Part shown: piece by piece, positions 9,854 to 63,769 of the stretch
How positions within the stretch are numbered: the first letter of the stretch is position 1
Layout of the letters: each line of letters opens with the position of its first letter
Assembly: GCF_032362555.1 (NCBI RefSeq)
Contig: NC_083508.1
Coordinates: 6,229,001-6,293,000 of the forward strand
DNA from: Amyelois transitella
Taxonomy: Eukaryota > Arthropoda > Insecta > Lepidoptera > Pyralidae
Reading direction: 5' to 3'
DNA length: 64,000 nucleotides
The notes under the pieces: model-generated
Seen by the model: only the letters and a program-made list of their open reading frames with translations
Database searches by the model: none
What the model was told of the DNA's origin: nothing
Program-made: the position numbers and the translations under genes

Positions 9854-11828
9854 ACTACCTAGGTAGATACTTATCTAAAAAAAATGTATAAGCTTATAAT
9901 TAATTAGACTTAACATTTTTGTTAGTAATAGGACGTCGGACCTACCTATATTAATCCGATTTACCTATATGGTAGAATGTTTTACGTCTAAAGTATTTGC
10001 TGAAAAATATTTAAGAAACCAGATGGTCTTGCTCAATCTTGGCTGAAGAGTACTAACGTAACTACGTAGGTACATATAAAAAAGAAAACAAAATTAAAAA
10101 AAGTAAGTAGTTAGTATTCCTTTTCTACTGTAGTAGGTATCTACCTACCTACCTAAATAAGGTAATCACTCACTATAACAAACATAATATGCACATTTTA
10201 TTGTCAGATAACTAAATAAATCACGCCTTTTCCGGAGGGATAGATTAATTATTGCATTTTATTCGTTGGTCGAAAAAGATCTTATTTACTAAGTACCCAC
10301 CTATACAACCCATAAAAATCGGAATACCTAATATTATTCCGATTTCTATTCCGCAACTGTGTTAATAAAATTATTCTTTGGTTAAGCTGCTGCAGTAAAA
10401 AAATTTAGATAGCTAATGAGGTCAGACGGAAATTGCTCCCTGTAAAAACTGACATCGGTACCTACCCACGTAATTAATAAGATTATGACTATGTTTAAAA
10501 ATGTATATGCACTTAAATTTGACAATTTTCTATGATCTTGTGAACACAGGAACACCCCTTGTCGGAAGTAAGTACCTACCTACCTAAGCTGTCTATATCC
10601 TTGAAAAATACTTAATCGAGTAAATCCCATGGAACATACAAAAGCCATTTATACTTAATCGAAAATAAGTACTATACCTAATCGAATTGAGAATAGATAT
10701 ACTCAAGTCCTTATCCCTGTGGGGTAGACAGAGTCAACGGTCTCGAAATGATTGTAAGTACAGACAGGTAGGTATACAAAAAGGTGAGTAGTTTATTAGA
10801 CTTTACCTTGGTTGACTTTTATAGACCAATATATTCGGACTATGGTAGTAGATATTATAATTGTCACATAATTGTATTACTTATTTTTAGAGTTTTAGAG
10901 AAGTACCTAGTCAATTGCAGGCAGGCGGAAATCGATACATCATTCAGGAATGACACATAATTCATGAATTCTCAAAAAGATTCCCAATCACTCTGTGTTC
11001 TACTATGAGTAAGTATCTACCTCAGCAGACAGCAGATTATATGAGAATTGACAGTGCTATTCATAATGTTTTGGGGAATATTCTTATCTTCCCTCTCTCT
11101 CTATCTCTAAAGCTAGCCCAAAAGGTACTACACAATTATGTCTTAACAACGTTCGTGAATAGCTTCCCAAAGCCAAAAATCAAAGCACCATGAAGTATTG
11201 CCATCTAATAATAAAATTATTCTGGTAGGAATCTTACTAGAATCACAGACTTACAATACGCTTACAAATTCATATCAGTAGACGTATCATATTATGTTAC
11301 TGCGCAACTACCGCGATTAAGCAACTTCTGAAGAAGTTGCGATCCAACTTGGTACAGTGATTATATTGAGTAAGTATGTACCTCTATCTAGTTCCTCATT
11401 GCCGAGACTGACGCAAACCCCTGAAATCAGCTTTTCATGAGGAAGACATTCACAAAGAGAATATAACCACTACGTTTGACATTGCCCCAAAACTTTTCTA
11501 TCGCAATTTTTTTGTATTTGCTGCGATAGTGGTATCCTATAAAATCATTTTCTTAATGTTAATTGTATTATTATTTTAATGATAACACTGGCAACTGATC
11601 CAAGTTTTGTCAGTGTTACTATATAATGATATTTTCAAAAGTAATAAAACGCGCTCGATATCCCTGTTTATTTTATTGACCACTCGCCAGATGTTTGCGC
11701 ATTGTTTTCCAGTGCGCAGTAGTTTCTCTGTCGTAAAATCGGGATTCTGTTTTAGTATTATATCTATTCTGCCATTTTGAAAATAGTGGCGTGTATGGAT
11801 TAGACCTAGTGTTTTATATGTGACAAAT

Positions 11829-13325
11829 ATGTCCGGGAGCAATGATAAAGTGTCGACGACGCAGCGTATGATCCAAAGTGTCGCTTTCCCTCCAAGCCAT
11901 AAGCTCACTGTGACGGAAGTATTCGATGAAAAAACTGGAAAGCCTCTTCCAGATGTACTGAAGCAACACTTTATCTTAGAAGGTCGGATCGAGGAAAATG
12001 CTGCTTTGCGAATCATCCAAGATGGTGCCACCCTATTACGATCAGAAAAAACGATGATCGAGATTGATTCACCGGTGACCGTGTGCGGAGACGTCCATGG
12101 CCAATTTTACGATTTGATGAAATTGTTCGAGGTGGGAGGCTCACCCTCTTGTACTAAGTATTTATTCTTAGGTGATTATGTCGATCGAGGTTATTTCAGT
12201 ATAGAATGTGTTCTTTACCTCTGGGCTCTCAAGTTGTGTTATCCGAAGACGTTATTCCTATTACGCGGCAACCATGAGTGCCGACATTTGACAGAATACT
12301 TTACCTTCAAGCAAGAATGCAAAATCAAGTATTCTGAGAAAGTGTATGATGCATGTATGGATGCTTTTGACTGCTTACCTCTGGCTGCTCTAATGAACCA
12401 GCAGTTCCTATGTGTGCATGGTGGTCTTTCCCCTGAAATCAACAGCTTAGATGATATTCGTAAACTAGATAGATTTAAAGAACCACCTGCATTTGGAGCC
12501 ATGTGTGACCTCCTTTGGTCTGATCCTCTTGAGGATTTCGGTAATGAAAAAAATGCAGAACATTTCTCGCACAACTCTGTTAGAGGTTGTTCTTATTTCT
12601 ATAGCTATGCAGCATGTTGTGACTTCTTACAAAGAAACAATTTACTGTCAATCATACGAGCCCATGAGGCCCAAGATGCTGGTTACCGGATGTACCGTAA
12701 GAGCCAAACAACTGGCTTCCCCAGCCTTATCACTATTTTCTCTGCTCCAAACTACTTGGATGTTTACAATAATAAAGCTGCAGTCTTAAAGTACGAGAAT
12801 AATGTTATGAATATAAGGCAGTTCAATTGTTCACCACACCCTTATTGGTTGCCGAATTTTATGGATGTCTTTACTTGGTCTCTTCCTTTTGTTGGCGAGA
12901 AAGTCACAGAAATGCTTGTTAATGTCCTAAACATTTGCTCGGATGATGAGTTGATGACTGAGGGGGATGATGCATTGGAGGAAGCTAATCTCAGGAAAGA
13001 AGTCATTCGTAACAAAATCCGTGCAATTGGGAAAATGGCTCATGTGTTCTCTGTACTTCGTGAGGAGAGCGAATCTGTTCTGCAGCTGAAAGGACTAACC
13101 CCCACTGGCGCCTTGCCACTGGGGGCTTTGTCCGGTGGAAAAACATCTCTTAAAAATGCACTTCAAGGCTTCTCCCCGAACCACAAAATCACCTCATTTG
13201 CTGAGGCCAAGGGATTGGATGCAATTAATGAGCGTATGCCACCCAGGCGTGATGGTCAACGCACACCAGAAGCTCAGGATTGCAAGAAATGCTCAGATTA
13301 TGTGAACAGCAATGCGCACTCGTGA
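11829..13325 (+). CDS. CanA: Calcineurin A (PP2B/PPP3C catalytic subunit), intronless
   Basis: This is the calcium/calmodulin-dependent serine/threonine phosphatase catalytic subunit, which pairs with calcineurin B and dephosphorylates NFAT-type and other targets. The 498-aa ORF is complete. Metal-site motifs are GDVHG (87-91), GDYVDRG (115-121) and RGNHE (146-150). The CnB-binding helix region carries [20 protein letters not shown] (about 350-370). The calmodulin-binding segment is [20 protein letters not shown] (about 391-410). The autoinhibitory [20 protein letters not shown] lies at about 454-473. The ATG at 11829 is used because the upstream in-frame GTG (11820) is not a likely start and a TAG stop lies at 11784. 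Coding sequence is one exon, unlike its 5-21 exon neighbours. Length and all motifs are normal, so it appears functional. Confidence 0.97.
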
Positions 13326-18821: not shown

Positions 18822-19304
18822 TTACTTCGAAGTTTCATTATTTAAATACATTTTTCTGCACACCATTGATATATTTAAATCATGCAATGGTGGAACTGTA
18901 TTTTCTTGATATTCTCTGGGTGATAGTACACATCCTTTACGGCATTTACTTACATCAGTACAACAACAGACAGTCTCAACATTGCAAGGCAGTTTACTAT
19001 CTGCACTAGCATACTGTGAAAAGGAATCTTGAATTGTATTTATACTATCTATTTTAGTTGTTAGTATTAAATTAAAACTAGGATAAATAAAAAATGCATA
19101 CAAGGTTAATGCTACAAGGCACTGTATGGGGACTGCAGTTGACCAATATTTTAGTGGGTAATAATAAATACTAAAATAATGCAAATAATAATCAGGGACA
19201 AATGCCCAGATTAAATAAATACCCATCAAAGTCTTACTGAAAACATACATAAAAAATCCATACAAGGACCTTGCTGGAGTTGGTGCAGGCGTATGTTCAG
19301 GCAT
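18822..19304 (-). CDS. PIGP: PIG-P, subunit P of GPI-GlcNAc transferase
   Basis: PIG-P is a small ER membrane subunit of the complex that adds GlcNAc to phosphatidylinositol, the first step of GPI-anchor synthesis. The 160-aa frame has the family plan. A proline-rich N-terminus is followed by ARSLYGFFMYVFSKTLMGIY and LIWAFVPDYYL (first membrane span, about 14-36). YYPLKYWSTAVPIQ leads into the second span (about 56-80). DSINTIQDSFSQY follows, and the C-terminal NTVPPLHDLNISMV motif matches the conserved end. Between these last two lies an extra segment of about 30 residues with six cysteines (107, 113, 114, 115, 121, 125), absent from the vertebrate proteins I know. The coding sequence has no intron. 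Start: first ATG (19302-19304). The nearest same-strand neighbour is the Pcc1-like exon, about 250 bases upstream. Confidence 0.9.
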   Translation of the reverse strand: MPEHTPAPTPARSLYGFFMYVFSKTLMGIYLIWAFVPDYYLHYFSIYYYPLKYWSTAVPIQCLVALTLYAFFIYPSFNLILTTKIDSINTIQDSFSQYASADSKLPCNVETVCCCTDVSKCRKGCVLSPREYQENTVPPLHDLNISMVCRKMYLNNETSK

Positions 19305-19549
19305 CGTTTTCTAATTGCAGCTAGCTTGTTGAGAACAAATCTATTGTCTTTAATATCAGTAAAACATTCTTTAGAAATGCATTAACAGCAACACATAATT
19401 TTTTGAAGTCTTCCCCATAAAATATTCTGAAATTTAAAAAAAAACTTGTATTTATTAGTTGGTCAGGTTACAAGTTGACAAGTCCAGGATGCGCCCAGGA
19501 CTCCTAGGTAAGTCAGATTTTTAAAAGTTGAGGTGTCCCTTTGCGCATT

Positions 19550-26100: not shown

Positions 26101-29100
26101 CAGTCATCGGCAATCCTGTGTGGTTAAGATAAACGTAAATTTTGAAGTCCTTTTAAACTTTATTGTAAAATTATAATTCAAAATAATATGTTAGTTACTG
26201 TTAATCGTTATACATTTACACATGAATTTGTGTTTCGTTAAACGTCTTTCATTTGTTTTCTTTCTTCTGATTTTTCTGATTGTGTCACTCAGTTTACAAA
26301 ATGGAAAACTTGAAATATCGCGTTATCTACGAGTACGAGTTCCAACGTGGCACCAGAGCTGTGGAAACGGCTCGCAGGGTTATTGATGTGTATGGCGATT
26401 GTGTGACGTTTTCGTCCTGGAAATTTCGACCTGCAAAACAAACCCCTTGGACGGCCACAACCCCTAGTTGATAATGAAGAATTGAGGGCTATTATGGAAG
26501 CGTAACCATCTTCCTAGTTAGCTTCAAGTTTCGGTGTTTGTAATAAAACTATTTTAATCCACTTGATGGAAATTGGGAAGATTAGACACTTGAAAGGTGG
26601 GTACCTAACGAATTGAGTGAAGCAAACTGGCAAACGAGTGTCGACTGCTGCGTTACAGTACTTAACCGACACAATAATGAAGTGTTTTAACTCAAATAAT
26701 GATTTGATAATGATCAGGTTATGACCTGTGATGAAAAGTGGATTCTCTAAGATAATCGGAAACGCTCATCGCATTGGCTGGACCCTGGCCGGCCAGCCCA
26801 ATCCTGCCCCAAGCGAAAATTGACCCAAAAATTTACTTGTACGCGTTCGGTGGACTAGTGCCGGTGTAGTCCATTACAGTTTTCTTAAATCTGGCCAGAC
26901 ATTTACGGCAAACTATGATGGTAAGGCTAGCTGCTAAACAACCGAGGCTAGTAAATCGCTCCACGCCACTGCTGCTTCACAACGCTAGACCACACACTGG
27001 GCTACAAAATTAGAGGAGCTCAAAGATTTTATATTACAGGGAATTTTATATTTTAGTAAAGGGATCAGTGAACAGTGAACCACCCATGAGATGGCAAAAG
27101 TGCATAGATAATAATGGTTCTTACTTTGATTAAATATAATTATTTAATTATATAATTATTTTTGTAGGCAACCTTCTTGTACGCCATAGCAATGGTTGTC
27201 ATGGTTTTGTTGGTTAGATAAAGAATGTCAGATATAATTTTTATTGTCAAATATTTTTATATTATGTTGAATAATATAGTAATTTTAAACTGATTATTTA
27301 TCTCCTCTTTTCTCCTTCTATCTTCTGTAGGAGTGACTAACTTTGTGACTATACTTCCTACAACTAACAACCCCTAAGAAAAAATAATTATATTATTCCT
27401 ACAATTTTAAAAATTTACAACATTTTGTTCCTCCTCGTATAAAACCTATACCAATTTCATATGTAAGCACCTAATATTATGCTGACAATACCTGCGCAAC
27501 ACTTCGCCACGTCGCGCCACAAAGTGCCGGTGGTGTCGCGCCGCCACCGTCATCTCTCCCTCCGACACGTTGCTGATCTCGGCTACGGCAGCTTCCAATT
27601 GCTTTTTAGCTGCTTGTACTTGCTCCTCGCGGCCTAAATACAAACAGTTCAGAATTTTACCAACATAATTTTTAATATTATCTGCACCCAATTTTGTCAT
27701 TTTAAGGGTTTCGTACCTTTTAGGTACGAAACCCTTAAAGTAACGTAAAGCTAATATTTTCACGAATTATAAATTTCCATTGCTACCGTAACAAGAAAAA
27801 CAAAAAAAAATTAAGTTATGTCTGCCTCCATACAATAAACGTGTTTTCTTCCTATTTCTTTTGTTCAATATGAGAAACAGTAACAGAGGTAGACTTACAA
27901 TTTTACAGAATATAAGTTGTATTTTACTTTTCAAAATAATTACATAAAATAAATTAAAAGTGCCGTGTGGCTGGCATAAATATAAAAAGAATAGGATCAC
28001 TCCATCTCTTTCCCATGGATGTCGTAAAAGCCCACTAAGGGATAGGCTTATAAACTTGGGATTTTTCCTTTAGTCAATGGTGCTAGCCCAACCTGCCACT
28101 ATTTGAATCTCAATTCTATCATAAAGCCAAACGGCTGATCAGCCTATCAGTCTTTCAAGACTATTGGCTCTGTCTACCGTATCTATAGCCATGACTATAT
28201 GAATGAATGAAAAAATTATCAAAGGGGAAGCTTCTACACAACAAACACAATTCTTTTTATAGATAATGATACGGAACCGTTAGTGCGCGAGTCCAACTCG
28301 CACTTGGCCGGTTTTTTATTTTTAAACATGTTCCAATCGCAAGTAATATTAGACTTTTGCAATAGTTATGTTTGTGCTTTGATAGTTAGAAGTAAAGTTT
28401 ACCAATAATAAATATAGCTTCCTTATCTTCATCCTTTTCTGTTGGGAATATGATACGCGCACCAGTCTGCTCCCGAATCTTTTTAATATTAACACCATTC
28501 TTTCCGATCAGGAACTTGTGGTGTTCAGGTTTGGCACGGACATGGGCAGTGTGGGAAGTGAGCTCCCGCTCGGACGCGTGCGCCAGTAACTGCTGTTTGG
28601 CTTTCTCGACATCTTCAACGGGACCTTTTATAATAACCTTATCACTCTCGCTATCGGCGGCCGGAAACTTGATTAGTACGCCGCCACAGTCTTCCATAAT
28701 AGAATGAATGAGTTTACCGCCGGCTCCGATCAATGAGTTGTAATACTTTGGCGGTATTGTTACTTCCTCAGTCACTATATTAGCCTTCTCGTTGTGTATT
28801 TGTTGTATCCTCTTTACGGCCTCCTCGACATTCTCGCGCTTGCCTCGGACAGTTATAACATCGCTGTCATCACCTTCAGCAGGAAGATCGATCTGGGTTT
28901 GAGTTTCATCTCGTATCTTTCTCAGATTAACACCACCCTTACCAATGATGAATTTATGGAATTGTTTGAAAATAGGTACTTCTTGCACGTAAGATGATTC
29001 AGCAATCTCTTTCAGTAGTTTGTGTAGAAACTTTTCACACTTTTCAATATCCTCTTGAGGTCCTCTTAACTTAATTGGGCTTCTTTTTTGTCCTTGATCA

Positions 29101-31849
29101 GGAAGAGTAATAAGAACGCGGTCGAATTTTTCTCGGATTTCCTTAATTTTTTCTCCTCTTACGCCAATTAGTGACTTAATGTATCTATGATCAACATAAA
29201 CCTCTTTTGTTCTTTCGTTTTCTAATTTCATTACCATCTCCCGAAGCTCCCTTTCTGCATCAGCAACACCTTGGTGGCTGCCCTCAATACGAATCACATG
29301 ATTACCTTCATTTTCAATATTTATAACTACACCAGTCTCATCCTTCAGTCTGTTAACTGCAATAAAACATAACCAAATTTATTATTAGTATATAACAATT
29401 TATTAAAAAAATTTAATTTATTAAACAATAAATTAACTTACTGTTAGATCCACTCTTGCCTATGATGTGCTTGAAGAACTTGGGGTCAACAGAGAGTTCG
29501 ACGTAGGTTAGAGTGTCCAGCAAATTTTTCACAAAGTCATTCAGTTCCACCTGGGCTCTTTCCACTTCTTCTGGGGGGCCATCAATCTTAACCTTATCTT
29601 CAGAATGCGTTATATCAACATGGACCTGACAAGAGAAGAAACAGTATATTATTAATTATTCACTGTAAATATAAAATTTTAAGTTAAATATGATTTACCA
29701 CTGCATTTTAAATATCTTTTTAAAAGATTATTGATACCTTTCCGCGCATACCTTAGAGAAATCCTGTGTGATCTTTTTGATGTTAGATCCATTTTTTCCA
29801 ATAATATATTTATGTATCCAAGTAGGAGCATCCACGGTGGCAGTTTTCACAGAGTTTGCTTTCTCGCACACCTTAGACAGAGCTGTAAGAAGAAACAAAT
29901 GTTTCTGTCACAATTTTTATTTTATTTAAATGAGATATAAATAAATAAATAATTATATATGGGACAAATTAAAAAGATTGAGTTAGCCTCGAAGTAAGTT
30001 CGAGACTTCGTGTTACGAGATACTAACTTAACGATACTACATTTTATAATAAATACTTATATAGATGAACATCCAACACCCAGGCCAATCAGAAAAAGTT
30101 ATTTTCTCATCATGCCCTATATGCTTGACAAATTACGATAGACTTCCAAGTTTATATATTATTGTGAATAGTTTTCAATTTAAATAAGACATACTCACCC
30201 AAGCCAATTTTATTGTGAGGACCATGGAGAGTGATTGTGCCAGTTGGAGAATCAGGTGGAGGCATTTCAACAGACACACCAGTTTCCTTCAGAATCTCTT
30301 GGATGGTCGTACCACGAGCGCCAATCACATACTTGTGCTGAGATTTAGGCACCTCCACCCTTACAGTGGAGCATTTCTTTGCCTAAAACATACCAAATTA
30401 TTGTATTTTTTTATATAAATATGACGCAGATAAAGACATATCAAGTAATAACTCAATTTATTTTTAGGCATAATCATCATAGAGTAAACTTTGATAAAAC
30501 TATGTACCATATCTTCATAAATCTGTTCGATTTGCGCCTTAGCAGCGAGCACTCCATTCTTTTCACCGGCAATGACAATTTCGTCGCTCTGCGTGGAAGC
30601 TGGCGGGATATGAATGCGTGCACCGGTTTCGTTGCTAAGAGCAGCGGCACGCTCGCCGTAAGGTCCTTGAATGAACGGGTGGTAGATCTTTGGCACAGTG
30701 ATACGCTCCAGAGCTTTGCGTGACTGAAATTTCAATATAACAATCAGATCAAACTCAACACAAAAAATTATAGTACATATTTATCATCATAAAATATATT
30801 AAAAATACCTGTTCTTCTGAGCAAACCCTGATTTCGTGCTCAGCCTTTTCAATGCCCTCCTTGGTACCTGTTATAGTGATTGTTTCACTGTTATCAGCGA
30901 TGCCTGGAACACTGATTCTAGTAGCAGTCACTTTCTCCAGCTCCTTCAGTTTTTGTCCTTGCTTGCCTAAGATCCAACGGTGGTGTTCCTTAGGAATCGA
31001 AATTTGCTTGCTAGCCTAAAAACATAGTTAAATTATATAGGACAAAGTATCCAAGACATAATACCTATAAGGAGAGAATAATTGTATTTAAACTTAAAAT
31101 TACCTGTTGCTGGAAATGAGTCAAAATTTGACGCCTCGCTTCAAGAACAGCACTGTGCTTCCCTGTGATAAGAAAAGTCAGACTGCCATCCTTGCTGGTT
31201 GATATTTCGATATGCGCTCCAGTGTCCTTTGTAATAGCCTGGCATGTTCTCAAAGATTCACCTTCTCCGAATGTGTTGGCATTATCCAATTTCCTTTCCT
31301 CATATGGCACATGGAAAACCTTAAATATTATTTTTTATATTATTTCAAAAAACACAATCATATCATATTATTAACATAGGATAAAAAGATTTATAATTGA
31401 TCAAAATACTTATTTAAAAAAATATTGAGAACATGCCTTGAGTAGACAAAAATGTTATTGTGTGACAGCAATTTTATTCTTACATACATTTTCCATACCT
31501 ATTTTAATACATAGTAGAATATGCCTGTAACATGTGCTAGCTTGAATCGACTCACGATATTTATCGATGTCTTACGTAATCGTTTACCACATGAGCATAT
31601 TTTTTGATAATCTTACGTGGTACGCACCTGCGTGTGCAGAGAGGATCCAACACGAAGCTTATTGGTGACCTGCTGAATGCTGCGCTGAACAGGTGGCTGC
31701 GAGTGAGGCAAGGCCGGGAACAAGTCATCGTAGGCGTATCCCGGCCCGCTGTTATCGTAGCCCACGTTGTTCATTTCCTCCCCATGCACAGGTATTTCAG
31801 AATGAACAGGAAGCATATCTCCAACCATCATGGATTGCTGATGCATCAT
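23180..31849 (-). CDS. Dp1: Vigilin (HDLBP/Dp1), multi-KH RNA-binding protein, 16 exons
   Basis: Vigilin binds mRNAs and tRNA on ER-bound polysomes and heterochromatin-related RNA through an array of KH domains. Coding exons from the start: 31628-31849, 31104-31319, 30809-31015, 30508-30723, 30199-30382, 29752-29882, 29442-29625, 28403-29356, 27492-27633, 25971-26115, 25636-25884, 24966-25103, 24776-24870, 24383-24596, 23935-24147, 23180-23440. Every junction is GT-AG and phases agree, giving 1256 aa, near the family norm. KH loops include ILGKQGQK, VIGARGTT, IIGKNGSN, IIGKSGSN, LIGVRGEK, IIGKGGVN, LIGAGGKL, LIGKNGVN, VMGARGSK, VIGEGGAV and LIGVKGRN. Several are degenerate (FGEGES in KH1, GQKRRE in exon 12, ARRGEV in exon 9), as in known vigilins. 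The last exon is GC-rich and ends GFVVTGGPWEQR...WGPRR. A 5' UTR exon piece may lie at 31850-31896. The mRNA start is upstream, unresolved. Confidence 0.95.
26300..27135 (+). mobile_element. Decayed mariner transposon in vigilin intron
   Basis: The broken transposase frame starts MENLKYRVIYEYEFQRGTRA and continues with AVETARRVIDVYGD, DNEELRAIMEA, HLMEIGKIRHLKGG, TCDEKW-like CDEKWILYDNRKRSHWLDPG and LLLHNARPHTG, ending PPMRWQKCIDNNGSYFD. These are the mariner catalytic surroundings in order, with many stops and shifts. Terminal repeats were not identified. It lies opposite to the host gene, between the exons ending at 27492 and starting at 26115. Confidence 0.82.
27701..27739. repeat. Perfect 18-bp hairpin at the edge of a lepidopteran repeat
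   Basis: Arms 27701-27718 and 27722-27739 (TTTAAGGGTTTCGTACCT and complement), with a 3-base loop. It resembles the GGGTTTCGTACC start of a widespread lepidopteran repeat. Its usual end, GTGCGCGAGTCCAACTCGCA then CTTGGCCGGTTTTTT, is found at about 28268-28315, with a SINE in between. Confidence 0.75.
27960..28210 (+). mobile_element. RTE-derived SINE in vigilin intron
   Basis: Head GTGCCGTGTGGCTGGCATAA, CCCATGGATGTCGTAAAAG, CTTTCAAGACTATTGGCTC and a TGACTATATGAATGAATG tail. It sits inside a larger repeat bounded by the 27701-27739 hairpin and the CTTGGCCGGTTTT end, so it is a nested insertion in the intron before the exon ending at 27633. Confidence 0.82.
29940..30118 (-). mobile_element. 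tRNA-derived SINE, head-less copy
   Basis: It carries the body and 3' tail of the family (GGGACAAATTAAAAAGATTG, then CCAGGCCAATCAGAAAAAG) on the minus strand, but stops at CTCATCATGCCCT. It therefore lacks the tRNA head: a truncated copy in a vigilin intron. Confidence 0.8.
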
Positions 31850-44200: not shown

Positions 44201-47200
44201 CGTTTAGTTGAATGAATTTTGTGATGTGAAAGAAGATGTAGTTACAGGAATAGAAAAGGGTATGTTAAGATGGTTCGGTCATGTGGAGAGGATGAATGAA
44301 AGAAGGTTGACTAAGCAGATAAACAAGGAGAGTGTGGAGGGAAAGGTCGGAGTGGGAAGACCTAGACCAACGTATCTTGATCAAATTAAGGACGTCCTGG
44401 TAAAGGGTCAGGTCAAAAGTACCCGAAACCGCTGAGCTTGCATGAAGAGAGTTATGAATTCCCGTATATATTTATATTATATCTTATATCTATAATTCCC
44501 GTATATATTTATATTTATAATGTGGATGAAGCGAAGGAAGTATGCAGAGATCGTGGCAAGTGGAAAGAGGTAGTCTCTGCCTACCCCTTCGGGAAAGAGG
44601 CGTGATTTTATGTATGTATGAGACATTTAGGTATAAAATAACTTCAACCTTTATTAGGACTAGTTTTACCGTATAGCCGCTGAGGACAGCGAGCTGGTGA
44701 GCACTCAAGTAGAACAAAAGCGGACGCGCGCGCGCTTACTTAGGTCCCCGGACGGTAAAGAGGGCGGCGCAGGAGGCCACAGCGGCACGACGTCACACGA
44801 GTTGAATACAAATAGATAGACCAAACGCTTTCTTCAGCTGAAATGATATTCTTCATTACAGAATTTTTGCAAGTTACTCTTGTTTTAGTGACGATAAAGA
44901 TATTTATTATTTACAGAATGGAACCCCGCCAATGTGCAAAGCTGCCTTACGCCAGATCACTGACAAAGCGCGCGAGTTCGGAGCGGGTCCGCTGTTCAAC
45001 CAGATATTGCCGCTGCTCATGAGCCCTACACTCGAGGACCAAGAACGACATTTGCTGGTTAAAGTCATCGACAGGATCTTGTATAAACTTGACGACTTGG
45101 TCCGACCTTATGTGCACAAAGTGAGTATTGATTATTGTGTTGGCGGTATTTTTGATACCATAGTATTGTAATAGATGCGCGCTCTGCACACATGGATCTG
45201 TATATGTTCCTTTATATTTTTGACTTATTAAGTTGATCATATCTGTGTATCTAGACCGCAAATATCACTTGATAAAATAATAAACAGAACCAACCATTCG
45301 AAATCTATATATTCAAAATATTTCAGATTTTGGTGGTGATCGAACCGCTTCTAATCGACGAAGACTACTACGCTCGCGTCGAAGGCAGGGAGATAATCTC
45401 GAACTTGGCGAAGGCGGCCGGGCTGGCCACTATGATCTCAACCATGCGGCCCGATATCGACAATATCGACGAGTACGTGCGCAACACCACCGCTAGAGCG
45501 TTCGCTGTTGTGGCTTCGGCTTTAGGTAACTATATGCCATATTTTTTATAGTTAGGTTTGGTTAAGTTTTGATACTTGTTATTACACTAGTTTTATTATG
45601 CAATATACATTTACTTAGAATTTAAGTGGTGATGAAGTTGATATACAGACGAAAGCGCAAGATTTGTTTATACGCTTTCGCTTATGTACACATGAGATAA
45701 CGCTTGTTTGAATTTTCAGGTATTCCATCGCTTCTGCCTTTCTTGAAGGCTGTTTGTCGCTCAAAGAAGTCTTGGCAAGCGCGACACACCGGTATCAAAA
45801 TCGTGCAACAGATTGCCATTTTGATGGGATGTGCTATATTGCCTCATCTCAAATCACTTGTGGAAATTATTGAGCACGGTAAGTTGCATTGCTTATATAT
45901 ACATACATACATACATAAAATCACGCCTCTTTCCCGGAGGGGTAGGCAGAGACTACCTCTTTCCACTTGCCACGATCTCTGCATACTTCTTTTGCTTCGT
46001 CCACATTCATAACTCTCTTCATACAAGCTCGGCGGTTTCGGGTACTTTTGACCTGACCCTTTACCAGGACTTCCTTAATTTGATCAAGATACGTTCGTCT
46101 AGGTCTTCCCACTCCGACCTTTCCCTCCACACTCTCCTTGTATATCTGCTTAGTCAACCTGCTTTCATTCATCCTCTCCACATGACCGAACCATCTTAAC
46201 ATACCCTTTTCTATTCCTGTAACTACATCTTCTTTCACATCACAACATTCCCTTATCACGCTGTTCCTTATCCTGTCACTCAATTTCACACCCATCATAC
46301 TCCTTAACGCTCTCATTTCCACTGCATTTATTCTGCTTTCATGCTTCTTTTGCCATACCCAACTTTCACTCCCATACATTAATGTCGGGACCAACACGCC
46401 CCTGTGCACAGCCAGTCGAGCCTTTTTGGATAGTTTCTGACTGCTCATAAAGGCATGCAAAGCTCCATTCACCATGTTCCCCGCGTTCACTCTCCTTTCA
46501 ATATCACTATCATACTTGCCATCTGATGTAAACTTTGATCCTAGATATACAAACTCTTTCACTTGCTCCACTTTTTCTCCTCCAATCAAAATATTACATG
46601 CTGTCATTTCTTTCTCCATTTCAAAAACCAGTGTTTTAGTTTTACTTACGTTCACTTTCATTCCTTTCTCTTTTAAAGCTTCATGCATACAGTTTACCAT
46701 CTCCTGTAACTCCTCCGCTGATGACGCCAGTATAACCTGATCGTCGGCATAGAGCAGACATTTGACGAGTAACTCATTCATCCTTAATCCACTTTTAGAC
46801 TCTTTCAAATCTGTCAAACAGCTATCCATAAATAGGTTGAACAGCCACGGTGACGCAACACATCCTTGCCTAACGCCTTTCTCAATCTTAAACCACTCAG
46901 TGTGCGCTCCGTTTATCCTGACACAAGCACTCGAATCCTCATATAAGGATTTCAGTGCTCGTATTAAGAGACTGCTCACCCCATGCATAGAAAGTGCTGA
47001 CCACAATTCATTCCTCTCAACTCTGTCATAGGCCTTTTCCAGATCTACGAATGTGCAATAGACTTTTTGACTCTTGGCCAAAAACTTTTCGGCTATGCAC
47101 CGCAAGGAAAAGACCTGATCAGTACATCCCATTCCCTTTCGAAATCCCGCTTGAGCATCCCATATTTTGTCATCAGTTTCATTCCTGACTCTATTAATCA

Positions 47201-50200
47201 ATACCTTAGCATACAATTTGCCGACGACGCTAAGCAGGCTTATACCACGATAATTTTTGCAGTCCAGCTGTGACCCTTTTCCTTTGTAAAGTGGCACGAT
47301 AACAGCCTTACACCAATCTTTTGGTACTCGGCCGCTTCTCCAACACAAATTGAAAAGGCAGTACAACTGACTAGCTACTACGCCTTTTCCTGCTTTAAGC
47401 ATCTCGACCGACACTCTATCACACCCAGCAGCCTTTCCCGCTTTCATACTCTTAAGTGCTTCCACAATTTCGAACATTTCAATTTCGCCTTCCATCTCAT
47501 TCTCTTTTTCTTCGCTATAGCAGAAATCTTTCTTATTTCCTTCCTTTTTTTCAAATAAACTTTCAAAATAGTCCTTCCATATCTTTAGTACACATTCTTC
47601 TCCTTTCACAACGCTACCATCCTGGCATCTGATCCTAGTCAGCTCTCTGGTTATAGTATTTCCTCGGGCTGACCTTACGGATTTCCAGAATACTTTCAGA
47701 TTTGACTGAAAGTCTTCTGATAGCCTTTTATCAAAATCCTCTTTATACTCTTCTTTCTTTCTAATCACAGCTTTCTTAACCAAATCTTTCATTTTCTTAT
47801 ATTCCTTACGTGCTTCATTCACATCTTCATCTATAACCTCTTGCATTCTTAAGTTAGCTTTTGCTGCTAACAAATCCAGCCATGCTTTCTTCTTTAATCG
47901 CACAAGTTCTTGCACATCTTTACTCATCCACGCATTTTTGTGATTTTTTCCTTTCCTTCTTCTACTTACACCACACACTTCAACAGCTACTTTCACAATT
48001 CTTTCTTTAAATTCCTTCCATCCATCTTCAATATCGCTCATTTCCTCTAAATCTTCAAATTCATCCTTCAGTCTATTAATATACTTCTTACCTACATCCA
48101 TATCTTGCAAATTTTCTACTTTTACTCTTTCCAAAGCGCTGGTTTGCTCCCTTACCCTGTGCCGCCAGCGATTGAAGATACCCCTTATCCGGGATATCAC
48201 CAGTAAATGGTCCGAGTCAATGCCAGCACCGCGATATGCACGGGTATCCAGCACTTTGTTCTTCAATCTTTCATCTACAATCACAAAGTCTATCATACTT
48301 TTTAAAATACCTTCCACTCTTGTGTAGGTGTGGATCTCTTTATGTTGAAACATTGAGTTCGACACAAAAAGATCCCACTCTAGACAAATTTCTAATACAC
48401 TTCTTCCATTATCATTCACCTTTTCGTCACCAAACGCACCAAGCACCTTTTCATATCCATCACGCTTTACACCCACCCATCCATTAAAATCACCTAACAT
48501 AATAATCTTCTCATTTGGCTTGGTAACTTTCAATACTTCTCTTACACTATTCCAGAACTCCTCGTTTTCGCTTTTTGCTGATGTTGTACCCCTCGAACCC
48601 ACATCCCAAGGTGCATAAACACCTAGAACGAAGATCCGAGTGATTCCAACTTTCAGCCTAATCCATAGAAGACGAGGGCTGACACACTCATACTCATTCA
48701 CGCACTCAGCCATTCGTGCAGAAAGAATTAGAATTATGACGGCCTCTGTGGCGCAGCGGTAGTGCGCTTGTCTGTGACACCGGAGGTCTCGGGTTCGAAT
48801 CCCGGCCAGGGCATGATGAGGAACGAACTTTCTCTGATTGGCCTGGGTCTTGGATGTTTATCTATATAAGTATTTATTATAAAAATATAGTATCGTTGAG
48901 TTAGTATCTTGTAACACAAGTGTCAAACTTACTACGAGGCTAACTCAATCTGTGTAATTCGTCCCGTATATATTTATTTATTTATTATTTATTTATTAGA
49001 CCGACCCCTTGACAGCCTCGGCTGGTACTGGAAATTCCAGACCAATACGCCGTGTAAGGGCCGTGCTGCGTCGCGTCGCATCCTTTCCGCTTCGTTTCAT
49101 TCACGCACAACACATCCAAACGTCTTTCATCCATCATCTGGCATACTTCCTCAATCTTATCCTTCATTCCTCCTCTTACATTCATCGTCGCAAAGCGGCT
49201 TTCAGCAGACCGCATACCGCTCCCGCCGGGAACGAGACGTGATGGGGTGCGGACACCATCGCCGCCATTTATATGCTTTTTAAGGTTCATAATGCGATTC
49301 CCACGAGACGCTAGGGAAAAATTTTGTCCGCCCCAGCAGAGCCCCGCATGCCAGGGTAAGGCTAGCCATTACCTGGGGGTCGCCCAACCCCATGGCGGAA
49401 GTGGCACGCTCGAGACTAGGCTCGCCCCTAGCCATGCATCCATCGGCGCGGCAGACCTTAGATTGGCAGGGATTTACATTAAAGAGGAATCCCAAGTCTA
49501 TCCCTTAGTCGGCTCTTACGACATCCGTGGGAAAGAGATGGAGTGGTCCTATTCTTTTGTAATGGTGCCGGGAACCACACGGCGGCGGCGGCATTGCTTA
49601 TATATGCATTATTATATATTTGCTTTTCAACCTTAATATGTCAAATACACACATTTTGAAAAGTTTTAATTTCGCCCACGGGCCGGATTTTTTGTGGGCG
49701 AAATATGCCTTAATTGAATGTGCCATAACATTCAGTATTATGCAGATTATATTTATATAATATAATTCTTAGCTTTTCAACAAAACAAGTAATGATGAGA
49801 TGACTTTGTTGCAAATTTTATTTAAATACTGTGTTTATTATAATTCAAGGGGTTTCTAGATAACTTTCATTCATATATATTATTTTTATGAAACCCAGGA
49901 CTGGTCGACGAGCAGCAAAAAGTGCGCACCATCACGGCTTTAGCGAGCGCAGCCCTGGCCGAGGCCGCCACTCCGTACGGCATCGAATCATTCGACTCCG
50001 TGCTCAAGCCCCTCTGGAAAGGTATCCGCACCCACCGAGGAAAAGGTCTGGCTGCGTTCCTCAAGGCCATTGGTTACCTCATACCGCTCATGGACGCCGA
50101 ATACGCCAATTATTATACTCGGGAAGTGATGCTTATCCTCATCCGTGAGTTTCAGTCGCCCGATGAGGAAATGAAGAAGATTGTGTTGAAGGTTGGTTTG

Positions 50201-55577: not shown

Positions 55578-58500
55578 TTAAGGTGGGCTGCCCCTGGCGG
55601 TGACGTGCACCACGGGCCCGGAGAGCACGCGTTGCCAGGTCGAGCCGGTCGCGTTCTCCGTCGTCACGCCTAGTCTCCTATACAGCGCGCCTTCAACACT
55701 TATGGCCCAAACCTCATTTCCCATTGCAGACACATTTTTGAAGAATAAATCACAATCTGAAAAGAAATTGGTTGTGAAATTCTCTCACATACTAGGGCTT
55801 TGAAATTAGTTTTTAACATTTTTTTGCCATAAATAGGCATCATTTTATGTATGTATGTATATTTGTCATGTACATGGCAACAAATCAGGTATTGATTTAT
55901 TGGTTTACCTGATAAATATTTCCATTGCTTTCCGTTCTTATTATCCTCCGAAATGTCTGATCTTATAACAATAGCACCATTTGATAACAGAACCCAAGCA
56001 GCATGTTGATTTAGGGATACTGATTTTGCTCCTACAGATGACTTGTGACTGATGGGGTAGGTATTTTTCGGAGACTCAATTAGCTTCCAATTAGATCCCC
56101 CTGGCGATTCTTTAGAAATACCCTCTCGGTAATAGAGCTCGCCTTTTCTTCCCACGGCCCAAACAATTTGATTGCATGTACTTATTGCAATCAACATCTG
56201 AGGATTATTTATATTTTCCCAGTGAAGGCCCTAAAATAAACACAAAAAACATTTCCTTATAAACAGTGCCGTGTGGTTCCCGGCACAAATAGAAAAAGAA
56301 CAGGACCACTCATCTTTTGATGAGTAAGGGATAGGCTATATACAGATTTGAATGAGGCTATATTTTAATCTCAATTCTATCATTAAGCCAAACAGCTGAG
56401 CGTGGCCTATCAGTCTTTTCAAGACGATTGACTGTCTACCCCGCAAGGTATATAGCCAAACAGCTGAGCGTGGCCTATCAGCCTTTTCAAGACGATTGAC
56501 TGTCTACCCCGCAAGGTATATAGACGTGATTATATGTATGTATGCATTATATAGATACATAAATTGCGAATGCCGCTACCAAGTTATCATCTTTTTTGTG
56601 TAGTTTTACTAACTAAAAACTATGTATGAAAGTTATTTACACTCTTCACGTTCTTTACAATTCCTAATCACAATATATCTTGGAATTTAAACGACTATCA
56701 TCAGTGCAACGCAAATCCCTGTATAGTAATGGGTCACGTTTTTAAATTTTAGGTCCAGATCCCTAAAAATACATACCGATGGAGTTGAAGTAGTCACCCC
56801 AGTACGATAAATTGCGTCGCCAGCTAGGGTCACACCCCAAACCACAACATCGTCATTGTTGCTCTGAAACATAATATATTTTTATCTATATGTATGTATG
56901 TACAGTTTTTTTGGATAAATTAATTTAAACCAGGGCATGATGAGAAACAAACTTTTTTGGGTCCTGAATGTATATGTATTAATTAAAATCCCGCACCTTC
57001 GTCCACGTGATTTCTTTTTTCGCGATAAAAAAAATTCTTCCTTAGGATCAACTCTATCTCTGTAGGTACCAAATTTAATTGAAATCGGTTCAGTAGTTTA
57101 GGCGTGTAAACGTAAGAGACAAAGTTATTTATCTATTTATAATGTAGGGATAAGGATGAAGATACATTAATCTACCTATATAAAAGTTGCCTTATCATCC
57201 ACCACCTCCGTTTATGCCCCATTTTACAATAAAAAAAAATAACATAATGTAAGTAGTGTGATGTGGTGAGCTTATAGGAGGTACAATACATACATTTTTC
57301 GTTGTCATTGTCGTTAAACTTGTAAAATCATTACGTTACTTACCCATAATGATATATCCAGTAAGGCGGTACTTCCCACTCGGAGCCAAGGTCCCTCTGT
57401 GATTACTTGTGCCTTTCTATACCATCTTCGCCGCCGAACACAATCTGTAAAAATCTTTTTTCCATGGTACGGAGCTGGGAAATCCGTAGCATATTGCCAT
57501 CCATCATTATCTACTCCTCCAGGGGTATTGTAGTCAATCATCCACTCGGATACCTAAATAACGAAAAAGTTTCGTCAAAAATAATGATGTGATGGCGATA
57601 CCCTATTAACCTGTTCTCACAAAGCCCGCCGGTTAGATCTTGTAAAAAAACAGTTAAGTCAACAGAATAAAGATATACCCAGTGCCAGTGACGATTAATA
57701 AGTTTGGTATGTTCCCGAGTCCTCTTTTGTTTGCCAGTAATATCACTCCACATATATCTATCAGTAGGGAGACCAGTTGAAGTGTAACCAGAAATTGGAT
57801 TCCACCTCTGGTTTTCATATACACAATAAGTTTGGGTGTCTGTCATGGAGTTTATGCCCTCATTTCCATTCAACCCTGAAATTATTTAAAATTTAAAAAA
57901 AAAAAAATATACTCAAATATTAAATAATGTTTCTGATATGTAAAGACAGACCAATTTTACCTTTTAACATACCACCACCCCATCCTCCTGTATATAACCA
58001 AACACGATGATCATGAGATATTCCCCACACTACACCATTCTGACAAGTTTCCACCTTGCGGAGATACCCACCAATCATACGCCAAACCATTTCATCTGAT
58101 CCTATAATAACACTTGTTGAAGAGAACTCCATACTATATAGTTTTACTGATCCTTGTATTTCAATTGCAGTAATACTTTCTGGGCTCAATCTGTGCTCAT
58201 AAGTACAAAATGTACTATCATTCACAATTATTTTAAAAGTTTGTGCACTACACTTTACTATAATCAAAAACTCTTGTCCCCGTGAAAATGGCAATGGATG
58301 TCGCTCTTCGACTCCCCAACTACCAGATGTTTTTGTATTGCAAACCACAGCACTTTCATCAAACCTGATATCAAAATGGAGAGGAATTTCGGTAACTTCA
58401 GTTTCAATTCTGTGTCTTTGTCTTTTAACTTCTGGACCTTGAAGATTAATGTGAAATCTTTTAATATCATCATTAAGGCAACCAGTTACTTTCAGAGTGC

Positions 58501-60772
58501 TTCCAGGGGCGAAATTGTTATTCAAATTTATGGTATAACCTGGTAAAATATTTTTACCAAACACTTGAAATTCTTTGGTATAAATACCATTTTTCTCACT
58601 GTTAAGTTTTGTTGGCAAAGGATCCCAACTAAGAATATCACCAGAACTTGCTACTGACCACACTGAACTTGCAGATGGTTTCCCTGATAGTCCATTAATT
58701 TCTGATATTATACGTACTAAAACACTTAGCCACTCTTCTTGTTCCATTTCAGATATAAACTGTATTTTTATGATATTTTTGCTATTCCTTGGCACTGATA
58801 ATATAATTCTTGGACATCCAGGTTCTGATAAAGTAAATACAGAGTTGACTTCTCTCAAATTAAGTATAAATTGGATAGTGCCATCAGGCTGAAATACTGA
58901 CAAAGTTCCAGTATTTTCTGAAGCATGCCAATACAGTGATAAGATGCAGTCTTCTAAATTATTACTCGAACCGACTAGCCTTGCTTCACAGCTGCGTGTC
59001 CAGCCCTTTTCTTCAATAGCAATTCCATAGTTAGTTAGATCTATGTTTTGATAATTATTTCGATTTTTCAGAGAATTTAGAATATGAAGCCGCCAAGTGG
59101 CACTTAAGTCTGAATTATGTGCATTATGTGAATCTGCAAACCAGTGAGGTACTTGTACTGTATCCACAGAACAAGCTCCGGCGTCAACAAAAGACCAGGT
59201 TGTGTCACATGTCCCCCATGCAGTTTGGCTAACTTCTTCATCAAAATACATACCAGAATCTAAATCAAATACACTGCTATCACTGTCTGGTTGAGCTTCC
59301 ATACCAACAACTGATCCAACACTACGTACTGGACTCCAAGCACGGGGATTTTTCAAAGTTGTCTCATAACTTTTACCTGTTAAGTCTATTTGTTCAATAT
59401 TAGTATTTCCCTTTGACCGTATCTCTTTTGGAGGTTTAATGGGCAAAGTGTGCTCAATAGGAGCTGAATGGGATTCCTCCCATGAATTTTGCAAATGAAT
59501 ATTAGTCTTAAGTTCTGGAATTGTTTCATTTAACATACTAAGACTGTGATGTTTTGCATTTGAAGATGATGAAATAACACTAGCTGAACTAGATGTACGA
59601 CTTAGTTGCATATTAGCTTGAACCATTCTCCATCGTTTTCCAGTAAGTTCAGCTGGAGTAATACCACCTCGCCAATATATACATTTGTCAGTTTCCCCAA
59701 TAGCAAAAACTTGGTCATTTATTCCAACTGACACATGCACCATGTTTCCTGTGATTTCGAGCCATCCTGTACCCATTGCGGCAGTTTCAGAATTACCTGC
59801 TGCATTGCCCTCAATACCTTTTCTGAACCATACCCTTGCATCTGAACTAGTGGCCCAAACAACATTATATCCAACAGATATAACAGATAGTTTTGTTTCC
59901 ACTGGAGATTTTACTTCCAACCAAGCTTCTCCTGTTGGGCAGTCTTTAGTTACTCCTTTTCTAACAATTGCTCTACCAGTCCACAGCAGAGCCCAAACAA
60001 GGCCTTGCGGTCCCACTGATATTTGTTTAATATCACAGTTTGGTGGAATGCTTATATTAATCCATTTTAATCCTTCTGGAGACGTTGTACTTACACCTGA
60101 CCTAAACATTACTCTTCCATGTGCAGTAATTGACCACACAGCTAAAGTGCCAGGAGCTGCATATGGGATCTGATTTCCTCCAATACTTACATCTATAAAA
60201 GGTTCTTGAGTGGGATCTTTGTGCAAAGGAGCTATGGCACACCAGGAGTTCATTGCACTAAATTTTCTATAGCGTATCCACTTTCTTCTTCTTACACATG
60301 ATTTCCACTGCTTCACAGCACCAAATTGAGCAGGAAAATCAACTGCATAGCTCCATCCATCATGATCTAATGGCTGTCCATCTAGTGTGAGTTCAAGTTG
60401 CCAATCTCCTTCCCATTGCCAAGCCATGGATGGAAGCCTAATATGATCTATTGACCGGTCTTTGGTGCCATCTTGGGAAGAAAAATGGTATCTGTCAGTT
60501 GGTAGCAATCTCCCACTAAAACCTTCCAATGGTAACCACCTTTCATTTTCATAAGACTCTTCTTTCACTCGAATCGGAATTTCTAATCCATGAACATGTA
60601 GATATATCTGTCTATCACCACCAACAGCCCACAAATAATGTGGTACAGCAGACAAAGTCTTGAACTCCAAACCAAGATACATAAATTCTCTCCAACAGGA
60701 TCCGGTGGTCGATAGGGCGTAGACTTTGCCTTCGTTGTTAATAGAAAACAATAATGAACTACTTCCTGACAT
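55578..60772 (-). CDS. Tecpr1: TECPR1/Pex23 with an embedded galectin-like domain, six exons
   Basis: TECPR1 works at lysosomes and autophagosomes, where the vertebrate protein binds ATG5-ATG12 and membrane lipids, including after damage. Exons: 57961-60772, 57679-57875, 57344-57553, 56777-56863, 55909-56230, 55578-55756; phases 1,0,0,0,1 join to 1268 aa. Order: dysferlin domain (about 60-172; RWLPLEGFSGRLLPTDRYHF, SCVRRRKW), tectonin propeller repeats (about 205-380), a low-complexity linker, a PH region (about 588-690), then WSVASSGDILSWDP (704-717) and MVWRMIGGYLRKVE. In between, residues about 737-882 form a galectin-type domain: H799, R803, N812, W819, E822, R824. The second dysferlin domain (exons 2-3: ENQRWNPISGYTSTGLPTDR, CVRRRRWY) and final tectonin repeats (exons 4-6) follow. 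Start: first ATG. The human protein, as I know it, lacks the galectin segment. Confidence 0.95.
56267..56545 (+). mobile_element. RTE-derived SINE with internal tandem duplication
   Basis: Head GTGCCGTGTGGTTCCCGGCA and a GACGTGATTATATGTATGTA tail. The segment from AGCCAAACAGCTGAGCGTGG to CCCCGCAAGGTATAT is present twice in a row (about 56384-56452 and 56453-56521), with a single difference noticed (CAGTC versus CAGCC). It lies in a TECPR1 intron, opposite strand. Confidence 0.87.
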
Positions 60773-61316: not shown

Positions 61317-63769
61317 TAGTGTCCGACCGAAGGTCTATTTTTGGCCGAAGCCGAAGCCGAAGCCGATTAATCGGCTATCGCCACAACCTTCGGCCGAAGC
61401 CGAAGCCGAAGGTTTATATTCTCTCAGCACTCAGTAATTAATTTTGTTCAATATTGTCTACAAGCTACAATTAATGTTAAAATTATTTCAAAACCTCAAT
61501 ATTGAAGGTTTATATATTGACTGTCTCAAATAGAAGTTGATATATCATAGAGATGGTTGGTTTAGAGATAAATAAAAGTAACCAGAGAGCTGACTAGGAT
61601 CAGATGCCAGGATGGTAGCGTTGTGAAAGGAGAAGAATGTGTGCTAAAGATAACGAAAGACTATTTTGAGAGTTTATTTTAAAAAAATGAAAAAAATAAG
61701 AAAGAGTTCTGCTATAGCGAAGAAAAAGAGAATGAGATGGAAGGCGAAATTGAAATGTTCGAAATTGTGGAAGCACTTAAGAGTATGAAAGCGGGTAAGG
61801 CTGCTGGGTATGATAGAGTGTCGGTCGAGATGCTAAAAGCAGGAAAAGGCGTCGTAGCTAGACAGTTGCCTTTTCAATTTGTGTTGGAGAAGCGGCCGAG
61901 TATCAAAAGATTGGTGTAAGGCGGTTATCGTGCCACTTTATAAAGGAAAAGGGTCACAACTGGACTGCAAAAATTATCGTGGTATAAGCCTGCTTAGCGT
62001 TGTCGGCAAATTGTATGCTAAGGTATTGATTAATAGAGTCAGGAATGCAACTGATGACAAAATATGGGATGCTCAAGCGGGATTTCGAAAGGGAATGGGA
62101 TGTACTGATCAGGTCTTTTCTTTGCGGTGCATAGCCGAAAAGTTTTTGGCCAAGAGTCAAAAAGTCTACTGCACGTTTGTGGATTTGGAAAAGGCCTATG
62201 ACAGAGTTGAGAGGATTGAATTGTGGTCAGCACTTTCTATGCATGGGGTGAGCAGTCTCTTAATACGAGCACTGAAATCCTTATATGAGGATTCGAGTGC
62301 TTGTGTCAGGATAAACGGAGCGCACACTGAGTGGTTTAAGATTGAGAAAGGCGTTAGGCAAGGATGTGTTGCGTCACCGTGGCTGTTCAACCTATTTATG
62401 GATATTTGTTTGACAGATTTGAAAGAGTCTGAAAGTGGATTAAGGATGAATGAGTTACTCGTCAAATGTTTGCTCAGCGGAGGAGTTACAGGAGATGGTA
62501 AACTGTATGCATGAAGCTTTAAAAGAGAAAGGATTGAAAGTGAACGTAAGTAAAACTAAAACACTGGTTTTTGAAATGGAGAAAGAAATGACAGCATGTA
62601 ATATTTTGATTGGAGGAGAAAAAGTTGAGCAAGTGAAAGAGTTTGTATATCTAGGATCAAAGTTTACATCATATGGCAAGTGTGATAGTGATATTGAAAG
62701 GAGAGTGAACGCGGGGAACATGGTGAATGGAGCTTTGCATGCCTTTATGAGCAGTCAGAAACTATCCAAAAAGGCTCGACTGGCTGTGCACAGGGGCGTG
62801 TTGGTCCCGACATTAATATATGGGAGTGAAAGTTGGGTATGGCAAAAGAAGCATGAAAGCAGAATAAATGCAGTGGAAATGAGAGCGTTAAGGAGTATGT
62901 TGGGTGTGAAATTGAGTGACCGGATAAGGAACAGCGTGATAAGGGAATGTTGTGATGTGAAAGAAGATGTAGTTTCAGGAATAGAAAAGGGTATGTTGAG
63001 ATGGTTCGGTCATGTGGAGAGGATGAATGAAAGCAGGTTGACTAAGCCGATATACAAGGAGAGTGTGGAGGGAAAGGTCGGAGTGGGAAGACCTAGACGA
63101 ACGTATCTTGATCAAATTAAGGACGTCCTGGTTAAGGGTCAGGTCAAAAGTACCCGAAACCACCGAGCTTGTATCAAGAGAGTTATGAATGTGGATGAAG
63201 CGAAAGAAGTATGCAGAGATCGTGGCAAGTGGAAAGAGGTAGTCTCTGCCTACCCCTTCGGGAAAGAGGCGTGATTTTATGTATGTATGGATAAAAGTTT
63301 GATTTTGTGATTTACCTACTGGTAAAAAATAATGATTTCATTTCTTAATTATGTAATTGAATTACAGTAATTCACAAATTACAATTAGACCAATCAGTCT
63401 TTGTTTTACTCGACTAGACCAAAACTAGACTAATAAATAAAATAAACAAACACTAACTTCTTACTAAATAATTAATTGTTGGAGTGTTTTGTTTTGAATG
63501 TGATAAACACAAATTCAAAACAAAACAATCGTTTAAATACACGTACGTACTTGTTTTGATGCATGCAATCAGCAATGTGATATTTTGACAGTGACTCCCC
63601 GCCGCCTCATGACTTTCGTAACAGTTCGTTCAATCTCGACGGTCGCTCGGACCTTCGGCGAAACCTTCGGCTTCGGTCGGGTTTTGGGCCGAAGCCGAAT
63701 GCTTCGCCGAAGGTGGATTTTTTGGCCGAAGGTGGCCGAAGCCGAAGCCGAAGCTTCGGTCGGACACTA
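61317..63769. mobile_element. GCCGAAG-rich hAT element carrying an RTE copy
   Basis: Terminal inverted repeats TAGTGTCCGACCGAAG and CTTCGGTCGGACACTA are exact. The 8-bp target duplication AAAATTAC (61309-61316 and 63770-63777) is also exact. Subterminal zones (61320-61420 and 63640-63760) consist of repeated GCCGAA/TTCGGC motifs. No hAT transposase is visible; the interior is a 5'-truncated RTE copy (61580-63290) plus AT-rich sequence. It is a non-autonomous hAT, fairly young to judge by the exact ends. Confidence 0.9.
61580..63290 (+). mobile_element. 5'-truncated RTE copy lacking the YADD site
   Basis: It is a close relative of the 45901-49590 element, bounded by target duplication ATAAAAGT (61572-61579 and 63291-63298). 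It starts within the pre-RT region and runs to the (TATG)n tail. Compared with the other copy, it has lost about 32 bases at about 62475. This removes the catalytic YADD and following residues ([16 protein letters not shown]) and shifts the frame between the ORFs 61879-62514 and 62450-63274. A further shift lies near 61880. It is not functional. Confidence 0.9.

Follow-up and report, generated by a model that had tools for sequence, protein, structure and literature searches.

A galectin domain in the second propeller of TECPR1 from the insect Amyelois transitella

Background

Does an insect TECPR1 carry a galectin domain inside one of its propellers, and what could such a domain do there? This question is raised by a gene on the minus strand of a stretch of 64,000 nt from Amyelois transitella (Lepidoptera, Pyralidae; assembly GCF_032362555.1, contig NC_083508.1, positions 6,229,001 to 6,293,000; hereafter the window), in which a reading of the letters alone, made without database searches (the sequence-only reading), had placed a galectin-like segment within TECPR1. 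The assembly, of 327 Mb in 33 contigs with the window on contig C4, was used for all genome-wide searches. In mammals, glycan sensing and TECPR1 reside in separate proteins.

Here we report that the galectin domain of this TECPR1 is confirmed and real, far beyond chance. It occupies an early loop of the second propeller, most of its sugar pocket is kept, and it shares one chain with an ATG5-interacting motif and with a DysF domain that retains the sphingomyelin-contact tryptophan of the human protein.

Results

When the whole TECPR1 protein was compared with Pfam, Gal-bind_lectin (PF00337) was matched at residues 746–883 (58124..58537, minus strand) with an E-value of 2.3e-35 and 121.4 bits, the cut-off being 22.1. 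This match covers profile positions 2–132 of 132, that is, nearly the complete profile. The isolated segment reached 126.4 bits (E 6.2e-37; same cut-off), and when the genome was searched in all six frames the same stretch came up, free of stops, at E 9.5e-35. The sequence-only reading had named a galectin profile match as a check on the domain, and the hit is both significant and near full length. The segment as it had been delimited there, residues 737–882, maps exactly to 58564–58127 of the minus strand. The motifs quoted for it were found in place (HFDIRF at 799, VVCN at 809–812, WGVEER at 819–824 and ITAIEIQGSVKL at 867–878), as were the flanking motifs WSVASSGDILSWDP at 705 and MVWRMIGGYLRKVE at 895. 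The plus strand at 58127–58564 carries stops in the frame tried; the gene lies on the minus strand.

A phmmer search of Protein Data Bank (PDB) sequences with the galectin segment yielded 175 distinct matches at E ≤ 0.001. Among the best 60 of these, 59 are named galectins or lectins and one is a putative fibre protein (2wsu). The top match is the galectin 4hl0 (E 1.4e-35), which we take to be a nematode protein, followed by galectins 9 and 8. As to the beta-sandwich named as a further check, the single-sequence model of the segment is all-beta, and the best 50 of 991 Foldseek matches to it are all galectins, but its confidence is poor (mean predicted local distance difference test score, pLDDT, 42.5), and we use the Foldseek result as supporting evidence only.

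The host gene comprises six exons on the minus strand and encodes 1268 residues in a conceptual model with GT-AG splicing, for which the splice sites were chosen so as to keep the frame open and to give a TECPR1-like protein. Exon 1 (57961..60772; 2812 bases, 937 residues) holds the N-terminal propeller with its DysF domain, the ATG5-interacting motif, a PH-like region, the start of the second propeller and the galectin domain. The C-terminal DysF domain begins in exon 2 (57679..57875; Pex24p/DysF match at residues 950–1049) and is completed in exon 3 (57344..57553), again with a Pex24p match. Exon 4 (56777..56863) encodes a tectonin repeat and exon 5 (55909..56230) further repeats; exon 6 (55578..55756) contains the stop codon. 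A Pfam scan of the whole protein gave eight Hyd_WA stretches, five Tectonin, two Pex24p/DysF and one Gal-bind_lectin. Two sets of tectonin repeats with one DysF domain in each, the architecture of TECPR1, are thus present. The two propellers align with each other at a score of 392, compared with 71 for the highest of 200 shuffles, and are therefore homologous. Together with the match to the human structure 8p5p described below, the gene model and its domains bear out the naming of the host protein as TECPR1. Within the intron between exons 4 and 5, a 68-base unit occurs in two tandem copies that are 99% identical (56386–56521).

A genome search with the 937 exon-1 residues found one full-length TECPR1 locus. 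Two further, weak matches fall within this gene too, in exons 2 and 3 with the second DysF domain, and TECPR1 therefore appears to be single-copy in this genome. No relatives of the exon-1 protein were found in the viral contig collection; in the genome contig collection three stretches matched a pattern, none of which encodes a relative, and NCBIfam, a prokaryote library, yielded no family.

Because the gene model is derived from genomic sequence, the galectin stretch might be an artefact, namely an intronic, pseudogenic or assembly-derived fragment within the TECPR1 gene. We hold this to be most improbable. The domain lies wholly within the single uninterrupted, stop-free exon 1, whose surrounding open frame runs for 956 codons; the profile match is complete, the pocket is largely conserved, the locus is single in the 33-contig assembly, and large galectin-bearing relatives have been described from other insects. 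An annotation artefact was rejected on the open frame, the full profile match, the largely kept pocket and the single locus.

Where the domain sits was derived from the spacing of tectonin-like strand motifs. These start at residues 8, 47, 212, 259, 305 and 355 in the first propeller and at 704, 915, 1081, 1125, 1180 and 1225 in the second; the expression used also matched at 818 and 896, which were excluded, the former as belonging to the galectin domain and the latter as the first strand of the next blade. From the first to the second motif there are 39 residues in propeller 1 (8 to 47) and 211 in propeller 2 (704 to 915). Measured against this internal control, the early loop of propeller 2 is thus longer by about 172 residues. 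The corresponding loop of human TECPR1 presumably has about 20 residues; the vertebrate TECPR1 sequence compared here was the DysF segment of 8p5p. The earlier wording, a domain inside a propeller repeat, was right in substance, as the domain falls in the loop between strand motifs 1 and 2 of propeller 2. The DysF domains of human TECPR1 are described as inserted between blades 1 and 2 in each propeller (PMC10476172); the galectin domain therefore sits one loop ahead of a place already known to take insertions. The alignment of the two propellers is uninformative on the insertion point: being local, it begins at the DysF domain downstream of the galectin segment, so that removing this segment leaves the score unchanged.

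For the sugar pocket (58301..58378, minus strand), nine positions were compared with contacts described for human galectin-3 (PMC4422656): H799 corresponds to H158, D801 to N160, R803 to R162, E806 to E165, V810 to V172, N812 to N174, W819 to W181, E822 to E184 and R824 to R186. Eight of the nine are identical, the exception being D801, which has Asp for Asn, so the earlier statement that only the usual Asn is changed holds over these positions. Arg144 of galectin-3, also named as a contact (PMC11934519), is outside the nine. The spacing is that of galectin-3 except for the loop from R803 to N812, which is three residues shorter (9 versus 12). Asn160 is described as contacting galactose directly, and the equivalents of R803, E806, E822 and R824 as forming a salt-bridge network (PMC4422656).

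At least two other galectin loci, on contigs C30 and C13, exceeded the threshold in the genome; since the search was run exon by exon, this count is a lower bound. A scan of both loci for H-x-any-x-R followed by N and by W-x-x-E, a frame without which a carbohydrate-recognition domain (CRD) would escape, found three CRDs, all of which keep the Asn (HLNFR, HFNVR, HVNVR). One of them, the third CRD, on C13, was absent from the five matches of the galectin family search. The C13 locus looks like a tandem gene with two CRDs, the second of which is the one that the family search missed, and the C30 locus like a gene with a single CRD. Among the galectins found in this genome, the Asp would thus be particular to the TECPR1 domain. 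It speaks for a change in, or the loss of, galactose binding, and plain lactose or N-acetyllactosamine is probably not the ligand.

Taken further, the same substitution would fit a domain that has kept the galectin fold and lost ordinary sugar binding, serving as a protein-binding or structural module that might, for example, dock a partner or give propeller 2 and the DysF domain within it their shape. The sole change among the nine positions hits a core galactose contact, every other CRD found in the genome retains the Asn, and galectin folds can serve protein contacts. Drift would be expected in a pocket released from sugar binding, however, and eight positions are intact, including the set R803-E806-E822-R824. 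We regard such a module as a genuine possibility, at less than even odds.

The same chain carries a putative ATG5-interacting motif, WRLHILNSLKNRNNYQ (59048..59095, minus strand), at a single site. Its W560, I564, L568, R571 and Q575 agree in all five key residues, and with identical spacing, with W13, I17, L21, R24 and Q28 of the ATG16L1 motif as tabulated in PMC6769624; the pattern arose in 8 of 20,000 shuffles. A phmmer search of PDB sequences with the region around the motif matched no chain of an ATG5 partner. The genome also contains an ATG5-domain locus and an ATG16 of its own, where, near the ATG16 family matches, a relaxed pattern reads WRNKIITQLQGRNKRE (4/5 key residues, E for Q).

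The N-terminal DysF domain (residues 64–173; 60254..60583, minus strand) was matched to human 8p5p at E 7.4e-35 with residues 1–741 as the query and is identical to it at 53 of 110 positions. Human TECPR1 is reported to bind exposed sphingomyelin via W154 and to recruit ATG5, and changes at 12 residues of its DysF domain abolished recruitment in human cells (PMC10476172). W154 is present here as W156, and with R76, W77, L88, D143, K152 and C157 (human numbering) seven of the 12 essential residues are identical.

Elsewhere in the window there are two ordinary genes, encoding PIG-P (18825–19310, minus strand; E 4.4e-32) and a protein with vigilin-like KH repeats (28389–29378, minus strand; KH_1, E 5.1e-61). 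An open frame of 512 codons in one exon (11787–13322, plus strand) matches calcineurin-like phosphoesterases (E 3e-41) and presumably resembles calcineurin A; this intronless copy could be a retrogene. An element of the long interspersed nuclear element (LINE) type has a long uninterrupted frame of 978 codons at 45924–48857 (minus strand) with reverse transcriptase (E 3.4e-41) and endonuclease (E 3e-6) matches. A second LINE-type reverse transcriptase, spread over several frames, lies at 61683–63271 (plus strand), shortly upstream of the TECPR1 start, its last piece being a weak RVT_1 match.

Discussion

We propose that TECPR1, with its galectin domain in the loop of the second propeller, serves the ATG5-ATG12 ligase as a receptor for membrane damage, connecting membrane lipid and luminal glycan with the lipidation of ATG8, and we put the probability of this function at about 0.5. 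The N-terminal DysF domain, and the PH-like region, would bind exposed lipid, and the galectin domain would supply another contact, with glycans or glycolipids of the lumen that become accessible once a lysosome or vacuole is ruptured. ATG5-ATG12 would then be brought in by the ATG5-binding motif, and ATG8 would be lipidated on the damaged membrane. A single chain that holds the motif and both sensors could stay bound from lipid scrambling to open rupture. Glycan binding, recruitment to damage and ATG8 lipidation by the insect protein are predicted here from its sequence. A coupling of glycan sensing to the ATG5 and lipid functions of TECPR1 had already been suggested in the sequence-only reading. 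This idea gains support from an ATG5 motif with all five key residues and from an N-terminal DysF domain in which the sphingomyelin-contact Trp is preserved; its glycan-sensing part meets the changed galactose contact, and the main uncertainty of the proposed function is whether the pocket still works with Asp at 801.

Several points weigh against this function. Asp stands at 801 in place of an Asn that in galectins forms a hydrogen bond with galactose, and the same change in human galectin-1 reportedly abolished lactose binding; the study concerned (N46D) was not found in our literature search. Insect membranes contain mostly ceramide phosphoethanolamine instead of sphingomyelin, and few insect N-glycans end in galactose, so mammalian ligands may not apply. 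After the ATG5 region, TECPR1 gave no Pfam PH match, and the PH-like region at about residues 584–693 appears as seven strands and a helix in a very poor model (mean pLDDT 32.6). Five of the 12 essential DysF residues differ (C84 to S, L89 to P, S90 to T, I142 to V and K153 to Q), and C84 to Ser alone abolished recruitment of the human DysF domain (PMC10476172). Because this single, in the human domain disabling, substitution is present here, the lipid preference of insect TECPR1 may differ from the human one; the Ser may hint at a different lipid ligand in insects. Finally, silencing of the fly gene Pex23/CG32226, considered below, is described as leading to more and smaller peroxisomes (PMC3837297), which a function at lysosomes leaves unexplained.

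A bolder form of the proposal, which we offer tentatively and without expecting it to hold in full, is a one-chain insect receptor that, on endolysosomes or pathogen vacuoles that have broken, senses both lipid and glycan and directly starts ATG8 lipidation via ATG5. One protein would then cover what mammals assign to TECPR1 on the one hand and to galectin-8 or -3 and their partners on the other, its pocket retuned by the change from Asn to Asp to insect glycans without terminal galactose. A natural fusion is evolutionary evidence that lipid and sugar damage signals share one pathway, and the relation of the TECPR1 lipid signal to the galectin-3 sugar signal in human cells is under study. One insect gene holding two sensors is, moreover, a ready test system in insect cells.

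Among known systems, human TECPR1 is like the insect protein in its N-terminal DysF domain, its central ATG5-binding region and its two propellers with a DysF domain in each, and unlike it in that the architecture as described is without a galectin domain (PMC10476172). It is found at damaged lysosomes via sphingomyelin, minutes ahead of galectin-3 (PMC10481663). Human galectins 3, 8 and 9 are similar in sequence, galectin-3 also at eight of the nine pocket positions compared, but are separate proteins with Asn where the TECPR1 domain has Asp. Galectins 3 and 8 are described as marking ruptured vesicles (PMC10476172, PMC10481663), and galectin-8 acts with a separate receptor, NDP52 (PMC10476172). 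Drosophila and invertebrates go without mention in the texts available of PMC10476172, PMC12128658 and PMC10481663, as do insects in those of the first two.

In Drosophila, Pex23/CG32226 (TECPR_DROME) was judged to be likely TECPR1 (PMC3837297), and a comparison of PEX proteins in 2021 likewise judged it TECPR1 and rejected the peroxin label (PMC8172628), a view with which the fusion fits. With 1350 amino acids it is long enough for the same insert; it differs in being annotated as a peroxin, and it was compared here by its published description. Paired with human TECPR1, CG32226 scored with at least two double-stranded RNAs as a positive autophagy regulator in a muscle RNA interference screen (PMC4334200), which supports a role in autophagy and is silent on the galectin domain. 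The word galectin is absent from the text, figures apart, of PMC8172628 and PMC4334200 as available, and what PMC4728360 and PMC5746007 offer on TECPR1/CG32226 in the parts concerned is a reference and small expression changes. The apparent orthologue of CG32226 in the honey bee was called a galectin-family gene (PMC2447852). Publications joining peroxin 23 with galectin were not found, nor was a title on a fused galectin-TECPR1 protein among the publications listed, a search that left subscription papers mostly outside.

For 12 fig wasps, three galectin clades are described, with a single CRD, with one CRD plus other domains, and with two tandem CRDs (PMC8702095). Clade 2 has one gene per species, with 1172 to 1399 given as "molecular weight", figures that we take to be residues. 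Three galectin genes per wasp species equal the number of gene loci found in this genome, and each of the three kinds has a match here: C30, where one CRD was seen, for the first, TECPR1 for the second, and C13, where two were seen, for the third. We infer that clade 2 is TECPR1, which is not named in the descriptions compared, where the other domains are unspecified; the fusion may then explain the very large galectin of this immune-gene survey (PMC8702095).

Such studies would place the protein among the humoral or phagocytic pattern-recognition galectins that bind microbial sugars: the bee gene is named beside immune genes (PMC2447852), and the fig-wasp clade, if it is TECPR1, is treated as pattern recognition (PMC8702095). 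We consider this improbable. The protein start, MSGSSSLLFS, leads straight into a propeller strand, and inspection by eye reveals no signal peptide; the DysF domains, ATG5 motif and tectonin repeats indicate an intracellular protein; all fig-wasp galectins are described as lacking signal peptides (PMC8702095), and the fly gene scores in an autophagy screen (PMC4334200). A secreted immune lectin as the main role was rejected on the intracellular domain set, the start of the protein and the fly score.

Whether the fusion occurs in other arthropods had been left open in the sequence-only reading and can now be answered in part, since published descriptions indicate the same build in Drosophila, Apis and fig wasps. 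The galectin-TECPR1 fusion is thus probably not special to this genome. The TECPR1 of A. transitella appears to be a new member of a build that other insects share.

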